Of a stretch of 64,000 nt of DNA, positions 40,881 to 50,277 are shown piece by piece. A program made the translations under genes and the position numbers. Source of the stretch: Acidobacteriota bacterium (GTDB lineage Bacteria > Acidobacteriota > Terriglobia > UBA7540); the NCBI GenBank assembly GCA_021838785.1, contig JAKCCV010000003.1, positions 20,001 to 84,000 on the forward strand. Reading direction: 5' to 3'. Position 1 is the first letter of the stretch, and each line of letters opens with the position of its first letter. The notes under the pieces are model-generated. The model was not told the DNA's origin. It saw only the letters and a program-made list of their open reading frames with translations, and did no database searches.

Positions 40881-42269
40881 TCAGCCCTTAGCGCACTTTG
40901 TGAAAACCTGGTCTAGCAATTCGAGCGCCAGGTCTATTTCGTCGCGGGTGATGGTCAAGGCGGGGGCCAGCGTGAAGACGTTTTTGTAATAACCCCCGAC
41001 GTCGAGCACCAGGCCCATTTTGCGGCCGCGGGCATTCAGTGTGCCGCTCAGGCCCTCGGCGAAAATGCGGTCGGTCAATTCGCGGTTGGGCGTGATGCGG
41101 TCGGGCTGGGTGACCTCGATGCGCAGGGCGAGGCCGAGGCCGTCCACCTGCCCGATGGATTGGAGGTGTCGCCGCTCCAGTTCCCGCAGGCCGTTCAAAA
41201 AATAGGCGCCTTTCTCCCGAACGATGCTTTCGTAGTCCTCTTCTTCCAGCATCTTCAGCGTTTCGAGCGCCACCGCCGTGCCGAGCGTGTTCGAGGAAAA
41301 CGTCGAATGGGTTGAGCCGGGCGGAAACACTTCCGGCGCGATCAGCTCTTCCCGCGCCCACAGTCCCGAAATCGGGTTCAGGCCGTTCGTCAGCGCCTTG
41401 CCAAACACAATAATGTCGGGCACGATGTCGAAATTCTCAATCGCCCAGAACTTGCCCGTGCGATAAAACCCCATTTGGATTTCATCGTCCACAATAAGAA
41501 TCTTGTGTCGGCGGCAAGTTTCCGCCAGGCGCTTGAAATAATCTTTGGGTGGAATCACGTAGCCGCCGGTCCCCTGCACCGCTTCAATGTAAAACGCGCC
41601 AAACTCCGCCGCGCCCGCCTTCGGATCCCACACGCCGAAGTATTCCGAATCAAAAAGCTTTTCAAACTCCTCTTCGCAATAGAGGCCGCAGGTTTCCGGC
41701 TTCAGGCCGTAGATGCAGCGCAGGCAATACGGGTAAAAAACGAACTGGGCGCGGTCGCTGAAGTGCCCGTAGCGCCGCCGGTAGCGGTAACTTGAGGTGA
41801 TGGCCGAGGCACCGAGCGTCCGCCCGTGGTAGCCGCCCATGAAGGCGAACATCAAGTTCTTGCCCGTCGCGTTCCGCACCAGCTTCAGCGAATCCTCGAT
41901 GGCCTGCGAGCCGCCGACGTTGAAGTGGACGCGGCCTTTCACGCCGAAGCGTTTTTCGCAATACTGCGCGATGCGCGCCGCCGCTTCAATCTTTTCCGCG
42001 TGCAAATACTGGCAGGCCAGTTGCGGCAGGCGGTCCACCTGCCGCTTCAGCGCCTCGCTGAGCCGCGGATTTTTGTATCCAAAGCTCGCCGCCGAGTACC
42101 ACATCTGCAAGTCGAGATACGGCGTGCCCTGATCGTCATAGAGCGTGCTTCCCTCGCAATGGACAAAGATTTTGGGCGGCTCGAGGTAGTGAACCGTGTC
42201 CCCAAACGAACAATACTTCTGCTCCAGCGCCAGCAGTTCCGCCGTCTTTGAGCTCGTCTCAATCGCCAA
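40881..42269 (-). CDS. Class III (GABA/ornithine-type) aminotransferase
   Basis: 462-residue PLP enzyme of fold type I, subgroup III. The PLP Lys is K291 in IVFGKALTNG, the PLP-ring Asp is in LIVDDEIQMG, and GGSQAIEDSLKL and GGYHGRTLGASAITSS bind phosphate. An insert has four cysteines (C182-x2-C185-x8-C194-x3-C198); mammalian GABA aminotransferase holds a [2Fe-2S] cluster through a similar CxxC, so an iron-sulphur or zinc site is possible. It is the last gene of a lipid-like operon, 58 bp after the phosphatase gene, so it may aminate an acyl-derived keto or aldehyde group. Substrate unknown. Confidence 0.88.
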   Translation of the reverse strand: MAIETSSKTAELLALEQKYCSFGDTVHYLEPPKIFVHCEGSTLYDDQGTPYLDLQMWYSAASFGYKNPRLSEALKRQVDRLPQLACQYLHAEKIEAAARIAQYCEKRFGVKGRVHFNVGGSQAIEDSLKLVRNATGKNLMFAFMGGYHGRTLGASAITSSYRYRRRYGHFSDRAQFVFYPYCLRCIYGLKPETCGLYCEEEFEKLFDSEYFGVWDPKAGAAEFGAFYIEAVQGTGGYVIPPKDYFKRLAETCRRHKILIVDDEIQMGFYRTGKFWAIENFDIVPDIIVFGKALTNGLNPISGLWAREELIAPEVFPPGSTHSTFSSNTLGTAVALETLKMLEEEDYESIVREKGAYFLNGLRELERRHLQSIGQVDGLGLALRIEVTQPDRITPNRELTDRIFAEGLSGTLNARGRKMGLVLDVGGYYKNVFTLAPALTITRDEIDLALELLDQVFTKCAKG

Positions 42270-42327
42270 ATGCTTCCTCCCAACCCATCCTTGCTTTCCG
42301 GCAACCCAACCGCGCGGCCGCGCAGCC

Positions 42328-43107
42328 CTACCTCACCGGCGCCGGCCTTCGCGCCTTGGCGCCTTGGCGTGAAATCTTTGGCTTGGCCGTCAGCTTCTCA
42401 AGTTTCGTCTGCACGTCGGCGAACGTTTCAAACGCTCGGCAGGGGATGTTGCGCCGCCGGCAATATCCGAGCAATTGCTTTTTGGCGAACACCACGTCGG
42501 CTTTCTCGACGGCAAATCGGTCTGAGAACCCGTCGCCGATAAAAACGATTCGCGTCTCGCGGTTTTCCACCTGACGCATCACCGCCGCTTTGCACGTGGC
42601 GCAGCCGTGCTCGCAATCCGAATGCGGGAAGGATGCCGCCACGCGCCGCCCGCTCACCTCCAGGTGGCTCGCGTAGATATGCCGTCCGTTTTCAAGTTCG
42701 CCGTCCACTCCGGCGCGCTTCAAAATCCGCGAGATGACGTAATCAAACCCGTCGCTCACCACATAAAACGGAATCCCTCCCCGTCGCGTGAATTGATAAA
42801 ACGCCGTGAAGGTTGGGTCGAGCGGAATCGAGTCAATCACGGCGTTCAATTCCTCCGTCGAGGCGTCCACCAGCGCCATTTGCCGCTCCAGACATTCCCG
42901 CGAACCAATCAGCCCGCGCACCCACTCGTCCTCGACCTCGCGCCACAACGGGTGCGCCAATTCCTCCAGGATGCGATCCGTCACGTCCGCCTGCGTAATC
43001 GTTCCGTCAAAGTCGGAGAAGACGATGAAGGCGGAGTGGTGGAGTGGTGGAGTCGTGGAGTCGTTAAAATCGCGGGCTTCGGATGTGCGGTCAACGGCCA
43101 CCGTCAT
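42328..43107 (-). CDS. MtnX-like HAD-IB family phosphatase
   Basis: 259-residue HAD phosphatase. Motif I is FSDFDGTITQADVTD, motif II IPFYVVSDGFDYVI, and motif IV IVFIGDGFSDRFAVEKAD, with the MtnX-type CEHGCATCKA segment containing three Cys. The family includes 2-hydroxy-3-keto-5-methylthiopentenyl-1-phosphate phosphatase, but no other methionine-salvage gene is near, so another substrate is likely. The ATG overlaps the stop of the four-helix-bundle gene (ATGA). Residues about 15-27 (NDSTTPPLHHSAF) are encoded by an 8-bp repeat array that seems to have replaced the original N terminus. Confidence 0.85.
   Translation of the reverse strand: MTVAVDRTSEARDFNDSTTPPLHHSAFIVFSDFDGTITQADVTDRILEELAHPLWREVEDEWVRGLIGSRECLERQMALVDASTEELNAVIDSIPLDPTFTAFYQFTRRGGIPFYVVSDGFDYVISRILKRAGVDGELENGRHIYASHLEVSGRRVAASFPHSDCEHGCATCKAAVMRQVENRETRIVFIGDGFSDRFAVEKADVVFAKKQLLGYCRRRNIPCRAFETFADVQTKLEKLTAKPKISRQGAKARRPAPVR
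43032..43063. repeat. Array of 8-bp repeats, consensus GGAGTNGT (left copy)
   Basis: Four tandem units read GGAGTGGT, GGAGTGGT, GGAGTCGT, GGAGTCGT on the plus strand, inside the 5' part of the MtnX-like gene. The same unit recurs in inverted orientation at about 43547-43588, on the other side of the four-helix-bundle gene. Confidence 0.75.
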
Positions 43108-43535
43108 TTCCTCGCCTCGAGGTACCGCACGAAGGCTCGTAACATTTTCCCGACTTCCTCGCATCCTTTAGCCATGTGGCCCAGATCTTCTTCAGCGCCA
43201 ACGCCGATTCGGCGGCAAAGAATAACGTGCGTTTCGAGCTCCTTCAGCGACCCCTGAGACGCCCGTAGGAACCGGATAAAATCACCACGGCTTTCCCGGC
43301 CGTAACCTTCGGCAATGTTGGCCACAACTGAAGTTGCCGCGCGGCGAATCTGTGACGTCAAGCCGTAAATCTCTTCCCTGGGAAATTGCCCCCTGGCGGC
43401 ATAGCAGGTCTCAGCTAATTCCATCGCGCGTTGCCAAACTCTCAAATCCTGATATGTCCCAGGCGTTTTTTGCAACGGTTCGCGCCCATCTCCGTCCTTG
43501 GGAGCCCGAGACCGCGCGTCCCGCAGCTTCACCAT
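43104..43535 (-). CDS. Four-helix-bundle protein (S23 / Avd-like family)
   Basis: 143-residue protein of the family that includes 23S rRNA intervening-sequence proteins and the Avd protein of diversity-generating retroelements. Signatures: YQDLRVWQRAMELAETCYAARGQFP, EIYGLTSQIRRAATSVVANIAEGYGR and FLRASQGSLKELETHVILCRRIG. The pentameric basic barrel of Avd binds nucleic acid; for stand-alone copies the role is unknown. GGAGGA directly precedes ATG 43535; ATG 43562 would add residues encoded by the repeat array. It sits inside a lipid-like operon between inverted 8-bp repeat arrays, which suggests insertion. Confidence 0.88.
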   Translation of the reverse strand: MVKLRDARSRAPKDGDGREPLQKTPGTYQDLRVWQRAMELAETCYAARGQFPREEIYGLTSQIRRAATSVVANIAEGYGRESRGDFIRFLRASQGSLKELETHVILCRRIGVGAEEDLGHMAKGCEEVGKMLRAFVRYLEARK

Positions 43536-43546
43536 TCCTCCGCCCT

Positions 43547-43588
43547 CCCACTCCCACTCCACTACTCCACGACTCCCCTACTCCACCG
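43547..43588. repeat. Array of 8-bp repeats, consensus ACNACTCC (right copy, inverted)
   Basis: Plus strand reads CCACTCCCACTCCACTACTCCACGACTCCCCTACTCC, i.e. the complement of GGAGTNGT units with some variation. It abuts the stop codon of the PaaK-like ligase gene (43591) and precedes the four-helix-bundle gene. Confidence 0.7.
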
Positions 43589-43590
43589 CT

Positions 43591-44907
43591 TCACGCTCCT
43601 CGCTCATCCACCAACCTTTTGGCCTTTCTTCCCTGCGCGAGCGTACCCGGGCGATGAAACCGGAACGCCAGCCGGTACATGCCGCACGTGTGGTTGGCCC
43701 ACATTTCCGGATAGCGGCTCTCGATTTTCTGGCGCACCGCCTGCTCCACGCGGCTGGCCTCGATTCCGTCGGTCAGCTCCATTCGGAACTCCAGCACGTC
43801 GTGCAGACCATCCTGCCGCACCGCAACCTGCCAGTTAGGCGAGATTCCCTCCACCTCGTGCATCAGATTTTCAAAGATGGCCGGGTGCAGATTTCCCGCG
43901 CCCATGACCACCATTTCGTCGCGTCGTCCCTTGATGGGGGAGAGCCGTCGAAGCGTCGCGCCGCAGGCGCACGGCTCGGGGATAAACCGCGCCACGTCAC
44001 GCACCCGGTAGCGAATGAGCGGCATCGTCCGCCGGCCCAAGGTGGTCACGACCAGTTCGCCGTACCCTTCCGCGTCCGGCTCCAGAATCTCGAACAGGAA
44101 ATTGAATTCGTCCAAATGGTAGCCGTGCCTTTCGCCGCATTCCATCCCGCAGCCGCCGCCCATTTCCGTCGAGCCGTAGCCCAAAATGACAGGCGCTTTC
44201 CAAACGTCCTGGATATACCGCCGGTAAGCGTTGGTCATCCGGTCGCCCGCCGCCAGAATCAGCTTCATGGGAACAGTGCCTTCTTTTTCAGCAATTTCGC
44301 TCAGGCTGACCATCCACGTTGGATCGGCGACGATCACGTTGTAGCGATAGAGCCCCAGGCGCGAGTAAACTTCGCGCGGCGCCGGCTTTCCGATCGCCGA
44401 GCAGAAAGCGCCGATCGCCCGGCACGCGAAGAAAGTGACCCAACTGCTGATCCAATACCCAGCGTCGAACGCGCAAACCACGTAATCCTCGGGTCGCACG
44501 CCGTTTTCCCAGAGTGCTGCCGCCTCGTAGCGTCCCGCCAGCTCCAGTTCCTGATGATCGAAGTACACGCGCTTCGGCTCGCCACCGGTTCCCGTCGTCT
44601 CAAACACGGCCTGCGGCTCCCGGCAAAGAAAATCCTCCGGCGGATGCGACAGAAGGTCTTCGGGCGTGGTGAAAATGTCGCCCAAATCCTCCGGCCGGCG
44701 CACCTCCTCCGGCGCAATCGCCGCTTCCTTGAGCTTTCTTGCAAAAAATTTCTGGCGCCGAGCGGCATACCGCACGGTATGTCGAAACGCGTCCTCTTGC
44801 ATTCGCCGAATCAGCGCCGGTGGCGCCGACTTGCCCGCTCGCGCCAGTCTCGGCACCGAATCGCCGATGACGGTTCGCTCCACGAATTGTCGCATCTGGC
44901 TTAGCAT
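43591..44907 (-). CDS. Phenylacetate-CoA ligase (PaaK)-like adenylate-forming enzyme
   Basis: 438-residue ANL-superfamily protein of the PaaK/F390-synthetase branch. ATP-binding motifs include FETTGTGGEPKRVYF (P-loop-like TTGTGG), VILGYGSTEMGGGCG (acid-activation motif) and MPLIRYRVRDVARF with the conserved Arg/Asp of the hinge; VMGAGNLHPAIFENLM belongs to the small C-terminal domain. Substrate is probably a carboxylic acid that is activated to an acyl-AMP and loaded on CoA or on the ACP of this operon. ATG 44907 or ATG 44895 may be the start. Its C terminus ends exactly at an inverted repeat array. Confidence 0.82.
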   Translation of the reverse strand: MLSQMRQFVERTVIGDSVPRLARAGKSAPPALIRRMQEDAFRHTVRYAARRQKFFARKLKEAAIAPEEVRRPEDLGDIFTTPEDLLSHPPEDFLCREPQAVFETTGTGGEPKRVYFDHQELELAGRYEAAALWENGVRPEDYVVCAFDAGYWISSWVTFFACRAIGAFCSAIGKPAPREVYSRLGLYRYNVIVADPTWMVSLSEIAEKEGTVPMKLILAAGDRMTNAYRRYIQDVWKAPVILGYGSTEMGGGCGMECGERHGYHLDEFNFLFEILEPDAEGYGELVVTTLGRRTMPLIRYRVRDVARFIPEPCACGATLRRLSPIKGRRDEMVVMGAGNLHPAIFENLMHEVEGISPNWQVAVRQDGLHDVLEFRMELTDGIEASRVEQAVRQKIESRYPEMWANHTCGMYRLAFRFHRPGTLAQGRKAKRLVDERGA

Positions 44908-44961
44908 GTGACGAATAGCGCCCTCAGCGACGGCCCATTTTCCTATCGCGACGCCACAACC

Positions 44962-46149
44962 CTACATCAAATAGGCGGATTCTCCTGACCGCGAGGGCGG
45001 CGCGGCGAGCAGGTCAATAAACGTTTCTTTATCCAGCAGCGCCCGCGCCACCTGAGCCACGCCGTCGGCCGCGTCCGGTCGCGCCAACTCTCGCGCCCGC
45101 TGGCTCATCGCCTTCAAACGCTGGGGCTCCCGCAGCAGGGCGGAAATGATTTTGGGAATGTCGGCAAGGGTGGGCGCGCCCACCGCGACCTCGAGACCGG
45201 TGAGGTAATGGAGATGCCGTTCTTCCGGCCCCGGAATCGGGTGCGTGAGCACCATGGGCAACCCCGCCGCCAACGCCTCCGAGGTCGTGAGCCCGCCGGG
45301 TTTGGTAATGAGCACGTCCGCCGCCGCCATCAGCTCCGGAATATTCTCCGTCCAGCCGAAAATATGCAGGTCCAACGCCACGCGGCCGCGCAACTGCTCC
45401 AAGCGCAGCCGCACTTCTCGATTGCGGCCCGCCACCGCCAACACCTGAACGGGCTGGCCGCACCGTTCGAGCGATCGCACGATCTCATCCAGAGGCGCCG
45501 GGCCCATGCCTCCTCCCATCACCAAAATCACCGGTCGCCGAGCCTCCAATCCCAAAGCCTTCATTACTTCCGCGCGGTCAAACCGCAACGCGAACGCCGG
45601 GTCCACCGGAATGCCGCAAGTCACAATGCGATGCGAAGATACACCCCAGCCGGTCAGTTGGCGCTTGGCCTCCTCGCTGCCCACGCAATAAAAATCAATC
45701 TCCGGTTGAAACCAGGGTGGTTCCGTCACAAAGTCGGTTTGAACGGCAAGGATGGGCGCGCTAAAAACGCCTTCCCGGCGACCCAAGGCGGCCAACTCCG
45801 CCGCTCCCACTTCCGTGGCGATGACGAGGTGCGGCGACATCGCCTTCAGTTGGTTCAGCGCCTTGCGGCAGCCGTGGCGGAAAACCCATGCGGGCGCCGT
45901 CGCGTGATGGTGGTGCGTCAGCCGCCGCTCGAAGGTCCACCGCCACAGCCAGGGTGCCCGCCACAGCATCCACCAATAGGGCCGCACGTACACCCAGTCG
46001 AACCATCGCGTCGCGTCGTCGAGCGCGTCCATCGTCCGCGCCTCAATATCCTCGCCGCCGTCGTAGAGCGCCCGATGAATTACCTCCGCCGCCCGCAGGT
46101 GCCCCGCTCCAATTCCCAGGGATAAAATGGCAATGTTTTTCGTTCGCAT
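44962..46149 (-). CDS. MGDG-synthase-type glycosyltransferase (GT28)
   Basis: 395-residue GT-B glycosyltransferase resembling monogalactosyl- and glucosyl-diacylglycerol synthases. N-terminal motif SLGIGAGHLRAAEVIHRAL is the lipid-acceptor signature (GxGH), DLVIATE-like PHLVIATEVGAAE follows, and the C-terminal nucleotide-sugar domain contains ILVMGGGMG, FGWTENIPELMAAADVLITKPGG and the SEALAAGLPMV loop. Acts at the membrane surface to glycosylate a lipid. Position in an operon with ACP and ketoacyl synthase suggests its acceptor is the lipid made there. 54 bp upstream of the PaaK-like gene. Confidence 0.87.
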   Translation of the reverse strand: MRTKNIAILSLGIGAGHLRAAEVIHRALYDGGEDIEARTMDALDDATRWFDWVYVRPYWWMLWRAPWLWRWTFERRLTHHHHATAPAWVFRHGCRKALNQLKAMSPHLVIATEVGAAELAALGRREGVFSAPILAVQTDFVTEPPWFQPEIDFYCVGSEEAKRQLTGWGVSSHRIVTCGIPVDPAFALRFDRAEVMKALGLEARRPVILVMGGGMGPAPLDEIVRSLERCGQPVQVLAVAGRNREVRLRLEQLRGRVALDLHIFGWTENIPELMAAADVLITKPGGLTTSEALAAGLPMVLTHPIPGPEERHLHYLTGLEVAVGAPTLADIPKIISALLREPQRLKAMSQRARELARPDAADGVAQVARALLDKETFIDLLAAPPSRSGESAYLM

Positions 46150-46270
46150 AAATCCATCCCCACCGTCACCGTACCTACGGCCGTGGCGGCGGCTTTTAGG
46201 CCGTCCTCAGGCGAACGTCCCGCCGGGCCTTACGCCGCCATCGGCCCTCGCCTCGCCCTCAAAAGCGACG

Positions 46271-47500
46271 CTACGACAGCTTCCGCACCAGCAGCACGGC
46301 GTTGAGGCCGCCAAAGGCGAAGGAATTGGAAACGGCCACGCGGATCGGCCTTTCTCGGGCTTGATTGGGCACATAGTCCAGGTCGCACTCGGGGTCGGGT
46401 TTGGTGTAATTGGCGGTGGGAGGGATGATGCCGCGTTCGAGCGCCATGACGGTGGCCACCAATTCAATCGCTCCGGTCGCTCCCATCGTGTGCCCGTGCA
46501 TGGATTTGGTCGAGCTAATGGCCAACCGGCGCGCGTGCTCTCCAAAAACCTCTTTAAGGACCTTGGTCTCCGTGACGTCATTCAGCCGAGTTCCCGTTCC
46601 ATGAGCGTTGATGTAATCCACTTCATCGGGCGCGACCTGCGCCTGCTCGAGCGCCATGCGAATGGCTCGCACCGGGCCGGCAACGGTCGGCTGGGTCATG
46701 TGGCTGGCGTCCGAGCTGAGGCCAAAGCCCGCCAACTCCGCGTAAATCTTGGCTCCTCGCCGCTTCGCGTGCTCCAGTTCTTCCAGCACCAAAATGCCTG
46801 CCCCTTCGCCAATCACTAATCCCTCGCGGTCGGCTGAAAAAGGCCGGCACGCCGTCACCGGGTTCCCGTTGCCTGACGCCAGCACCCGCACCGATTCCCA
46901 ACACCGCATCATGCCGTAGGTAATGGGCGCGTCGGCGCCGCCCGCCAGCATGATGTCGGCCAAGCCCAATTGAATCAGGTGATAAGCCTCCCCGAGCGCG
47001 TGGCCCGACGAGGAGCACGCCGTGGCCGTGGAAAGCGCCGGGCCTTCGGCTCCGTACTCCATGCAGATCTGGGAGGTGGCGGCGTTGTGCATGATTTTCG
47101 GGATGGTGAAAGGGTGCAGGCGCGTGGCTTGTTTGGCGTAAAGGTTGTAATAACCGACGTCGAAGGTGCTCGCGCCCCCCATCCCCGTTCCAATCACCAC
47201 GCCGAACCGCGGGCGCTCCGCCTCCGCAACCTCCAGCCCCGCCGATTGCACCGCTTCGCGCGCCGCAATCAGCGCCAGTTGGCTGAAGCGATCCAATAAG
47301 TCCAGCCGCTTGGGATCGAAATAATCGGTGGGACGGTAATCGGGAATCTCGGCCGCGATTTGAATGCTTAAGGATGAGGGATCAAATTGGGTAATCCGAC
47401 GAACGCCCGACCGCCCGGCAATGAGGTTTGAGAAAAAGGCTTCGCGGGACTTGCCCGTCGAGCAAAACGCCCCCATCCCCGTCACGACCACTTTGCGCAT
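46271..47500 (-). CDS. Beta-ketoacyl-ACP synthase, FabF-like
   Basis: 409-residue condensing enzyme. Catalytic residues are in TATACSSSGHALGEA (Cys), NAHGTGTRLNDVTET (His) and STKSMHGHTMGATGA (Lys/His). It resembles FabF but also the KAS II-type enzymes of specialised lipid and polyene pathways; no FabD, FabG, FabZ or FabI gene is nearby, and it is clustered with a ligase, glycosyltransferase and aminotransferase, so a dedicated rather than general fatty-acid role is likely. AGAGGGAGT precedes the ATG. 27 bp downstream of the ACP gene. Confidence 0.93.
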   Translation of the reverse strand: MRKVVVTGMGAFCSTGKSREAFFSNLIAGRSGVRRITQFDPSSLSIQIAAEIPDYRPTDYFDPKRLDLLDRFSQLALIAAREAVQSAGLEVAEAERPRFGVVIGTGMGGASTFDVGYYNLYAKQATRLHPFTIPKIMHNAATSQICMEYGAEGPALSTATACSSSGHALGEAYHLIQLGLADIMLAGGADAPITYGMMRCWESVRVLASGNGNPVTACRPFSADREGLVIGEGAGILVLEELEHAKRRGAKIYAELAGFGLSSDASHMTQPTVAGPVRAIRMALEQAQVAPDEVDYINAHGTGTRLNDVTETKVLKEVFGEHARRLAISSTKSMHGHTMGATGAIELVATVMALERGIIPPTANYTKPDPECDLDYVPNQARERPIRVAVSNSFAFGGLNAVLLVRKLS

Positions 47501-47527
47501 CCTGAACTCCCTCTTCCGATGAGGATG

Positions 47528-47818
47528 TCAATTACTGGCCGCCGGGGTCTCACCCTTGGCAAGGGCCACCAGGTCGGAAATATCCTTGCCTTCGAGCACC
47601 CGAGTGAGGCTATCTACCACTTGCCGAACGCTCTTCATGTTTTGCGCCACCGCGTCCGGGATATCAATCTTGAATTCCTCTTCTAGCGCGAACAGGATGT
47701 TGACCCCGTCGAGCGAATCAATCCCTAGTTCAGCAAAGGTGGAATCTATCGTCACCTTGTCGGGTTCAAGGTGCTGCTCTCGGGCGATGATTTCGATCAC
47801 TTTGTCGGCAACGTTCAT
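47528..47818 (-). CDS. Acyl carrier protein
   Basis: 96-residue acidic protein with the phosphopantetheine attachment site GIDSLDG (Ser about residue 36) and typical helix II (VNILFALEEEFKIDIPD). It carries a C-terminal extension (DLVALAKGETPAASN) beyond the usual 78 residues. GAGGAG lies five bases before the ATG. It is the first gene of the lipid-like operon, directly followed by its ketoacyl synthase. Confidence 0.95.
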   Translation of the reverse strand: MNVADKVIEIIAREQHLEPDKVTIDSTFAELGIDSLDGVNILFALEEEFKIDIPDAVAQNMKSVRQVVDSLTRVLEGKDISDLVALAKGETPAASN

Positions 47819-48527: not shown

Positions 48528-49850
48528 TTAGGCTCGCGTGCAAATCCCTCGGCTCGCGGTTGGCCTGGGCGTAGTCCGCCAAACGATGGAGCCAGACAAC
48601 CGAGCCGCGGGTGCGCCTTGAGAGCGAATTCCCAGCCAAAGGGTGCTTCTATTCTCGACCTCGGAGAGATAGAATGAGCGCTCACGCCACTGCTCTTGGC
48701 GAGGAAGGGGGAACGGCCTATGACGACCGACGCAAAGCTGACCCGGCGAAAATTCATGGGGGTAGATTCTCTCTTGGACTTCAAGAGGTTTTTTCCTTTC
48801 GAAGGTGCAGGAAACCTTTCTTTTGGGCATCAGGCGGCGGCCTTTGTTGTGAAGATTTCGGCTGCGGGGAGCAGGGTAGAGCTTGTTGCCGTCGAAGGCA
48901 GTCCGATGTTTGAACATACCGAAGATGGCATGGAGGAGTTTGCGCATGACGGCCACCAGAGCGACCATCTTGGCTTTGCCGCGAGCTCGCAGATGTTCAT
49001 AGAAGGCGCGCCGGTGGGGCTGGCGGCGAAGGGCGACCAGGGCGGGCATGTAGAGGGCGCGGCGCAGGTGGACGTTGCCGTGTTTGCTGAGGCGCGGTTG
49101 CTTGTGGACGGAACTGCCCGAAGAATGCTCGCGCGGGTCCAGGCCGGCGTAGGCCACCAGTTGCCGCACGTCGAGGTCTTGCGGTGCCACGGCCAACTCG
49201 GCCAGCAAGGCCATGGCGCTGGTCTCGCCGATGCCCTTGGCGCTGAGCAGCAGATGGAAGCGCTGCTGAAGGCCAGAGTCCTGCCGGATGATTTTGACCG
49301 CCTCGACGGTGAGTCGCGCGACGGCACGGCGCAGCGAACGAAGGCTTCGCTCCAGGTCGCGGCGCACGGCGGCAGGGGAGGTGTCGGTGGCCCGAGCAGC
49401 GTGGAGCCGGTTCTGTTCGGCGGCCTGCGTGTCTTTCAGGGCCTGCAGGCGGCGCGACAAAGCGTGCAATTGAAGAACCACGGGCGGCGGCGTCCAGGCT
49501 TGAAACGGCATGCGCTTGGCAAATTCCAGCAGCATCCGCGCATCCAGCCGGTCATTCTTGCTGCGTTGCATCATGGCCGTGGCAAAGTGACGCGCCTCGC
49601 GCGGATTGGCCACCATCAGTTCGATCCCGGCTCGCGCCAGGAGCAGCGCCAGGTCCAGACCATAGACGCCGGTGGATTCCATACAAACGCGAACCCGACG
49701 ACCTGCGCCCCGCAAGAAGCGCAGCACGGCTTGATGGCCCTGGGCGTCGTTGGCAAAACGCTCCAGGGAAATCGTCCGCTCTTCACGCTCCACCGCCACG
49801 ATCAGTTCCTCGGCGCTCACTTCAATGCCCGAAAAATCATGCTTGTCCAT
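48528..49850 (-). CDS. IS110 family transposase
   Basis: 440-residue DEDD transposase (recombinase) of IS110. The N-terminal RuvC-like domain has GIEVSAEEL (Glu10 where most relatives have Asp), CMESTGVYG (Glu58) and KNDRLDARML (Asp100, Asp103). The C-terminal domain has KGIGETSAMALLAEL and SGSSVHKQPRLSKHGN with the catalytic Ser. GGAGGGACTT precedes ATG 49850. After NKLYPAP, where such proteins usually end, the frame runs on for about 105 residues without family likeness, so the stop may have been lost or the frame shifted. IS110 elements are guided by a bridge RNA from the non-coding end. Confidence 0.88.
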   Translation of the reverse strand: MDKHDFSGIEVSAEELIVAVEREERTISLERFANDAQGHQAVLRFLRGAGRRVRVCMESTGVYGLDLALLLARAGIELMVANPREARHFATAMMQRSKNDRLDARMLLEFAKRMPFQAWTPPPVVLQLHALSRRLQALKDTQAAEQNRLHAARATDTSPAAVRRDLERSLRSLRRAVARLTVEAVKIIRQDSGLQQRFHLLLSAKGIGETSAMALLAELAVAPQDLDVRQLVAYAGLDPREHSSGSSVHKQPRLSKHGNVHLRRALYMPALVALRRQPHRRAFYEHLRARGKAKMVALVAVMRKLLHAIFGMFKHRTAFDGNKLYPAPRSRNLHNKGRRLMPKRKVSCTFERKKPLEVQERIYPHEFSPGQLCVGRHRPFPLPRQEQWRERSFYLSEVENRSTLWLGIRSQGAPAARLSGSIVWRTTPRPTASRGICTRA

Positions 49851-50277
49851 AAGTCCCTCCTTGCGTGAGGCTGGGTTCCGGCTCCCCGACCCTGAGCCCT
49901 CTCCCGTCGAGCTTGTCAATGCAGGCTGGCCGTTGCGACGGCGCCTCAAATTCTCCTCGGCTTGGGAGAAGAGGGCGGGGGGCCTATCTACCCAACAGGC
50001 TCGCAGCTCATCGCCGGGCCTCAGCGCAGATCGGCCTTCCCGCCGAACCCAACCCTTCGCCTGAAAGCGGGGTAGCGCAAAGGTGGCCGCGGTTTAGCTT
50101 CCTTTGCGGCGTTTGAGTTGATTTGATAGACGTTGGTTGATTGCCGAGGGCGCGTCGCGCGGGTTGGCGGTAGAATCCCGGAAAGGTCGCCGGGGAACGC
50201 AAAAGGCAAAAGCCGCTGAGGAGCGCACAAGACGCGCACCTCAGCGCTACCTAAGGTGGGAGGCGGCGGGGTGAGGG
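49851..50277 (-). mobile_element. Non-coding left-end region of the IS110 element (candidate bridge RNA source)
   Basis: 427 bp without a supported gene between the transposase start and an unknown gene. In the IS110 group the non-coding end before the transposase encodes the bridge RNA. The segment contains GC-rich inverted stretches (for example around 49870-49990) that could form loops, but I cannot fix the element ends because IS110 has no terminal inverted repeats. Boundaries given here are those of the gap, not of the element. Confidence 0.3.

Follow-up and report, generated by a model that had tools for sequence, protein, structure and literature searches.

The closest known description of an arrangement like the one reported here is the S23-bearing intervening sequence (IVS) found in 23S rRNA genes of Leptospira and Coxiella (PMC4990558). 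The Coxiella IVS is 428 nt long, is bounded by a 28-bp terminal stem, carries heptamer repeats before its S23 ORF and is excised by RNase III; the ORF itself has been described as expendable (PMC4990558). S23 genes are also known from cas loci (PMC3936711), from positions adjoining CRISPR adaptation modules (PMC10910872) and from a survey of DGRs, whose accessory protein Avd is a homologous four-helix bundle (Avd 4DWL and 2GSC; PMC10053308). Heptamer arrays have been described in Xanthomonas and Nostoc, with convergent pairs in Xanthomonas (PMC4692102), and TAACTGA repeats occur in Beggiatoaceae, cyanobacteria and Bacteroidetes (PMC4679880). The texts of these last two reports make no link between S23 and heptamer repeats, and a search of the open-licence literature found no published description of S23 cassettes as a class.

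We analyzed a 64-kb stretch of an acidobacterial genome (the window), in which a minus-strand operon runs from a paaK-like ligase through an S23 gene and an mtnX-like phosphatase to a class III aminotransferase. The S23 gene and its surroundings are laid out as follows, in window coordinates:

43591..44907, minus strand: paaK-like AMP-dependent ligase, the upstream host gene, intact (NCBIfam and Pfam matches; orthologues in relatives)
43556..43586, minus strand: upstream arm, an array of GGAGTNGT units as read along the operon, with the paaK-like stop codon 4 bp before it (TRF, arm alignment, genome-wide uniqueness)
43104..43535, minus strand: S23/IVP four-helix-bundle gene, 143 aa from a likely ATG start at 43535 (PF05635 5.3e-37, TIGR02436 3e-35, XCC0516 relative)
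43104..43107, minus strand: ATGA overlap of the S23 stop codon and the mtnX-like start codon (sequence)
43033..43061, plus strand: downstream arm, the inverted copy of the array, translated as the N terminus of the mtnX-like protein (TRF, reading frame)
42328..43107, minus strand: mtnX-like HAD phosphatase, the downstream host gene, which starts inside the cassette (TIGR01489 7.9e-33; orthologues in relatives)

The initial annotation had placed an S23/Avd-like gene between inverted arrays of an 8-bp unit, one reaching the stop codon of the PaaK-like gene and the other translated into the MtnX-like N terminus, and had proposed that the insertion broke neither neighbor and coupled translation downstream through ATGA. 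Each of these points was borne out. The GGAGT...GGAGT array at 43033-43061 on the plus strand has its complement at 43556-43586, and within the window GGAGTNNNGGAGT or its complement occurs only in these two arms. Aligned to each other, the arms scored 41, compared with a maximum of 24 among 4898 equally spaced pairs from elsewhere in the window. A search of the whole 3.4-Mb genome for GGAGTNGTGGAGTNGTGGAGT, allowing at most 2 mismatches, gave 4 matches, all at the cassette, while a reversed control pattern gave 0. The units run head-to-tail with no spacers, which excludes a CRISPR array. The N terminus of the mtnX-like protein reads MTVAVDRTSEARDFNDSTTPPLHHSAFIVFSDFDG, the array sequence in frame. 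The stretch from this array to the conserved DFDGT motif contains no in-frame ATG, GTG or TTG, and the downstream array is therefore read as translated. A longer S23 ORF reaches back to 43562, with a GTG start at the array edge. No Rfam family matched positions 42200-44950.

Like the 23S rRNA IVS, the window element holds an S23 ORF between terminal inverted repeats, is of similar size and has a scattered distribution; tandem repeats upstream of S23 are likewise shared with the Coxiella IVS, where they are heptamers. It departs from the IVS in lying outside rRNA, in a protein operon between paaK- and mtnX-like genes, in having arrays on both sides with an 8-bp unit, and in an S23 gene that is under purifying selection (see below), unlike the expendable Coxiella ORF. 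The repeats of Xanthomonas, Nostoc and Beggiatoaceae resemble the window arrays as short, intergenic tandem units, and in Xanthomonas also as convergent inverted pairs, but those units are 7 bp whereas the window unit is 8 bp and specific to its element.

The window ORF is a member of the 23S_rRNA_IVP family: it matched PF05635 at 5.3e-37 and 126.7 bits (curated cut-off 33.8) over profile positions 1-105 of 106, and TIGR02436 at 3e-35 and 120.7 bits (cut-off 24). It is also related to XCC0516 (PDB 2gsc, 5.5e-21), a pentamer of four-helix bundles (PMC4990558), from which the four-helix-bundle fold of S23 follows. Although homologous to Avd, the protein does not classify as a DGR Avd, as the Avd models scored under their cut-offs (NF033474, 21.5 bits against 80; bAvd, 22.6 against 40), and profile models found no reverse transcriptase among the eight neighboring proteins scanned. 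Of the ORFs lying between the arms, S23 alone matched a known family, and no recognizable transposase was seen inside the element, which speaks against an insertion sequence carrying its own transposase.

The paaK-mtnX pair is conserved throughout the family, and the initial annotation had suggested comparing this operon among relatives. Only three genomes, the source genome and two others (G000, G001 and G002), have S23 in the gap, and the outer flanks of these three are homologous; none of the other family genomes with a readable paaK-mtnX gap has S23 there. In our sample the insertion is therefore confined to one genus, and it predates at least three species. Having preceded their split and been inherited vertically since, the window copy is settled. 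A further genome of the same genus (G003) has no S23 in the gap and keeps an ACTCC array next to mtnX; a 109-aa ORF lies between its paaK-like gene and that array (L038), where S23 would be. This ORF has no Pfam match and only a 14-residue S23 similarity at chance level. In some other genera, different heptamer arrays occupy the gap without S23 (L043, L044 and L049). For the window copy the element is missing only in distant relatives, and no empty site lies close enough to date or delimit the insertion exactly; empty sites do exist for related elements, as described below.

S23 genes are numerous in the relatives, with up to 23 per genome, and we fetched 80 regions around them. Over 81 loci, tandem arrays covered 31% of positions at 50-100 bp from the S23 domains; the share fell to 0.7% at 200-400 bp and was about 0.5% at distances above 4 kb. 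Arrays were thus about 60-fold denser beside S23 than more than 4 kb away, rather than equally common in both places. Most units at these loci are 7 bp long, and the unit changes from one S23 gene to another. Array length is variable and some arrays are degenerate. Where arrays lie on both sides, the more distant array generally repeats the nearer one in reverse complement: inverted pairs outnumbered direct pairs 50:4 near S23, and the two arms of an element aligned with a mean score of 43.6, which dropped to 19.9 when arms were swapped and to 17.0 when they were shuffled. Neither outcome named beforehand as refuting the earlier idea of a mobile or domesticated cassette was thus seen, whether the gene at this place in every relative or arrays just as common elsewhere. 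The idea is supported, and it was understated, as inverted short-repeat arrays are a property of S23 genes in general. The proposed search for S23 genes flanked by the same arrays succeeded as to arrays but not as to the word, since GGAGTNGT was seen in this genus only, other S23 elements having other units.

The same pattern appeared in 80 further loci from many phyla, including Acidobacteria, Cyanobacteria, Chloroflexi, Planctomycetes, Bacteroidota, Nitrospirota and several proteobacterial classes, a set gathered with a narrow search pattern and biased to that branch of S23. In 187 elements, exact 5-mer repeats at a lag of 7 occurred at 40 per kb, compared with 2.8 in control stretches. Strong arrays were present in 57% of these elements and 2.9% of controls; by this strict measure 43% of elements have none. 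The window element belongs to a small 8-bp minority of the 187. A mirrored order of variant units between arms (29 of 61 when segments were chosen by aligning the arms to each other) weakened to 4.9% against a null of 2.4% when arms were defined independently, and we give it no weight.

In the sampled loci (L066-L145), about half of the short-period arrays have no adjoining S23 gene. Away from S23 we counted 137 arrays in the sampled loci, with 16 inverted pairs, mostly compact with gaps of 7-131 bp in the main; these pairs look like gene-less hairpins. REPIN/RAYT and MITE systems are small inverted-repeat elements with gene-less derivatives. The S23 cassette is similar in both respects, but its gene is S23 rather than a transposase, and its ends are short-unit arrays that vary by element. 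No S23 match was found in phage records and no paaK-like gene in viral contigs.

We compared elements across groups, setting those of the relatives against genomes or plasmids from elsewhere. Array similarity rose with S23 protein identity (r = 0.42, or 0.41 when only tandemly repeated 5-mers were counted; permutation maximum 0.11 or 0.12). Units were shared by 0.2% of cross-group pairs at 40-45% protein identity and by 44% at 65-70%. Among pairs with at least 72% protein identity, arrays were often shared while the outer flanks were unrelated. Across unrelated genomes the repeat unit thus follows the protein, indicating that the gene moves together with its arrays.

On cyanobacterial plasmids, some sites occur both with and without an element. 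In the cleanest case, Trichormus variabilis plasmid C (L231) is filled where Nostoc linckia plasmid2 (L238) is empty, and the flanks are 97.6% identical: the empty site is AAAAAGTAATTAACAAATAAATATG, and the filled site has GTAAT at both sides of the element, a 5-bp target duplication. This is the one site with a clean duplication; four others, L226, L229, L232 and L242, had none and show small target replacements instead. One element family occupies three unrelated sites (L231, L232 and L242), and at known insertion sites there are also a copy in decay (L240) and arrays that have no S23 (L235). Within the window's own family, G013 carries an element that fits precisely into the gap separating a TAG stop from the following ATG, a gap that is 12 bp long in G011. 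Several insertions occupy gaps of this kind, after one gene's stop codon and before the start codon of the next. In Flavobacterium and relatives (L263-L266, L218), the content of one two-gene gap varies with the species: in one case it is an S23 element with a given unit, in others S23 elements built on different units, or hairpin arrays alone. Elements may have inserted here more than once, or a single old insertion may have had its arrays turn over quickly. The gene downstream of this gap looks, from its start, like a thiolase gene.

The neighbors of S23 elements tend to point the same way as S23. By simple gene calls, both neighbors shared its direction at 107 of 160 loci and both opposed it at 8. 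The bias likely comes from the element's need for transcription by the host, though insertion at the RNA level would produce it too. Selection could also be its source, and it is no proof of directed insertion. The S23 gene is under purifying selection: dN/dS was 0.05-0.11 in 8 of the 9 computable pairs. The close pair of the window gene and L110 gave 0.31, from very few changes, and the pair with L104 is saturated at silent sites (pS 0.82, pN 0.12).

With co-inheritance, matched arms, gain or loss at sites, an orientation bias and purifying selection all observed, we think it probable, as one joint explanation, that the feature in the window represents, in settled form, a mobile element widespread among bacteria, the "S23 cassette", consisting of one S23/IVP gene between inverted short-repeat arrays, and that it leaves paaK and mtnX open while giving mtnX its start codon and N-terminal peptide and linking mtnX translation to that of S23 through ATGA. 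The S23 protein would recognize its own repeat word in both arms, the two arms would bring the ends of the element together, and the S23-bound arms might then mark the element for an enzyme that moves the block. Expression of S23 would come from riding on the transcription of the host operon. With less assurance, we lean towards a broader proposal, in which S23/IVP genes constitute a previously unrecognized, bacteria-wide class of mobile element with inverted arrays of element-specific repeats, each with its matched recognizer protein and repeat word; its special cases and gene-less derivatives would be the rRNA IVS and the dispersed heptamer repeats seen in Xanthomonas, in cyanobacteria and elsewhere.

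The main rival, which we consider unlikely, is an RNA-level element resembling the 23S rRNA IVS, in which the arms of the host transcript pair into a stem whose loop holds S23, RNase III cleaves this stem, and copies return by way of a reverse transcriptase with S23 in an Avd-like role. The Coxiella IVS offers a precedent in its S23 ORF, terminal 28-bp stem, preceding heptamers and RNase III excision (PMC4990558), and the homology of S23 and Avd (PMC10053308) and the sense orientation of the neighbors are in keeping with such a route. The RNA of the window also folds better than its shuffles (z = -3.8), with the arms paired in the predicted fold. However, a test for selection on an RNA stem, made on arm mismatches across many elements, showed no preference for G-U pairs in the transcript (115 versus 107, p = 0.64). 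Cutting the stem in the window would take away the start codon of mtnX, and the eight scanned neighbors, as noted, include no reverse transcriptase.

Purifying selection on S23, its translational coupling and its retention at the window site in three species would suit a host regulatory module, in which, for example, an RNA- or DNA-binding regulator and its operator sites serve to control the operons they lie in and spread by ordinary gene transfer and not as a mobile element. We judge this very improbable given the very many unrelated insertion sites, with as many as 23 genes in a genome, the empty sites (one with a duplication), and the decayed copies and bare arrays. The idea that ordinary slippage repeats grew by chance beside S23 genes draws on the variable and sometimes degenerate arrays and on the commonness of heptamer repeats in bacteria (PMC4692102, PMC4679880), and is scarcely credible: slippage would not be expected to yield matched inverted arms, the inverted excess near S23, a unit that tracks the protein across genomes or the enrichment beside S23, and it is already contradicted by the matched-arm and co-inheritance tests.

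The S23 cassette as a mobile element would bring four loose ends into one frame: the function of the S23 family, the origin of the 23S rRNA IVS, the abundant heptamer repeats of bacteria, and the recurrence of S23/IVP genes beside CRISPR-cas loci (PMC3936711, PMC10910872) and among the genes found in DGR surveys (PMC10053308), which in part may be no more than a consequence of insertion into operons. Matched pairs of protein and repeat make recognition directly testable. If each S23 protein does read its own 7-mer, the many natural variants would be a ready series for learning the recognition code. Searches would then also have a concrete target in the enzyme responsible for moving the element.

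Other features of the source genome are recorded here as separate observations. Its only other S23 gene (L002:1370-1480 and about 1768-1795; G000:C27:99474-99794) has a different upstream array, with ATTTGAG / ATTTGAGATTACAG type units, a short copy of the motif within the gene and a weak downstream arm. The host operon at window positions 40881-47818 encodes the aminotransferase, HAD phosphatase and PaaK-like ligase together with a glycosyltransferase, FabF and an acyl carrier protein, and has the look of a pathway for a lipid or natural product; its ligase scored 143 bits against the flexirubin ligase model FlxY, far under its cut-off. An IS110-family RNA-guided transposase gene lies at 48528-49949, about 5 kb from the S23 cassette. 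A second 8-bp array, GCCTTGGC, at 42345-42369 in the 3' end of the mtnX-like gene, is translated as QGAKARR, and the same position in the mtnX-like gene of G003 encodes a similar peptide, HAKAPRRQG.
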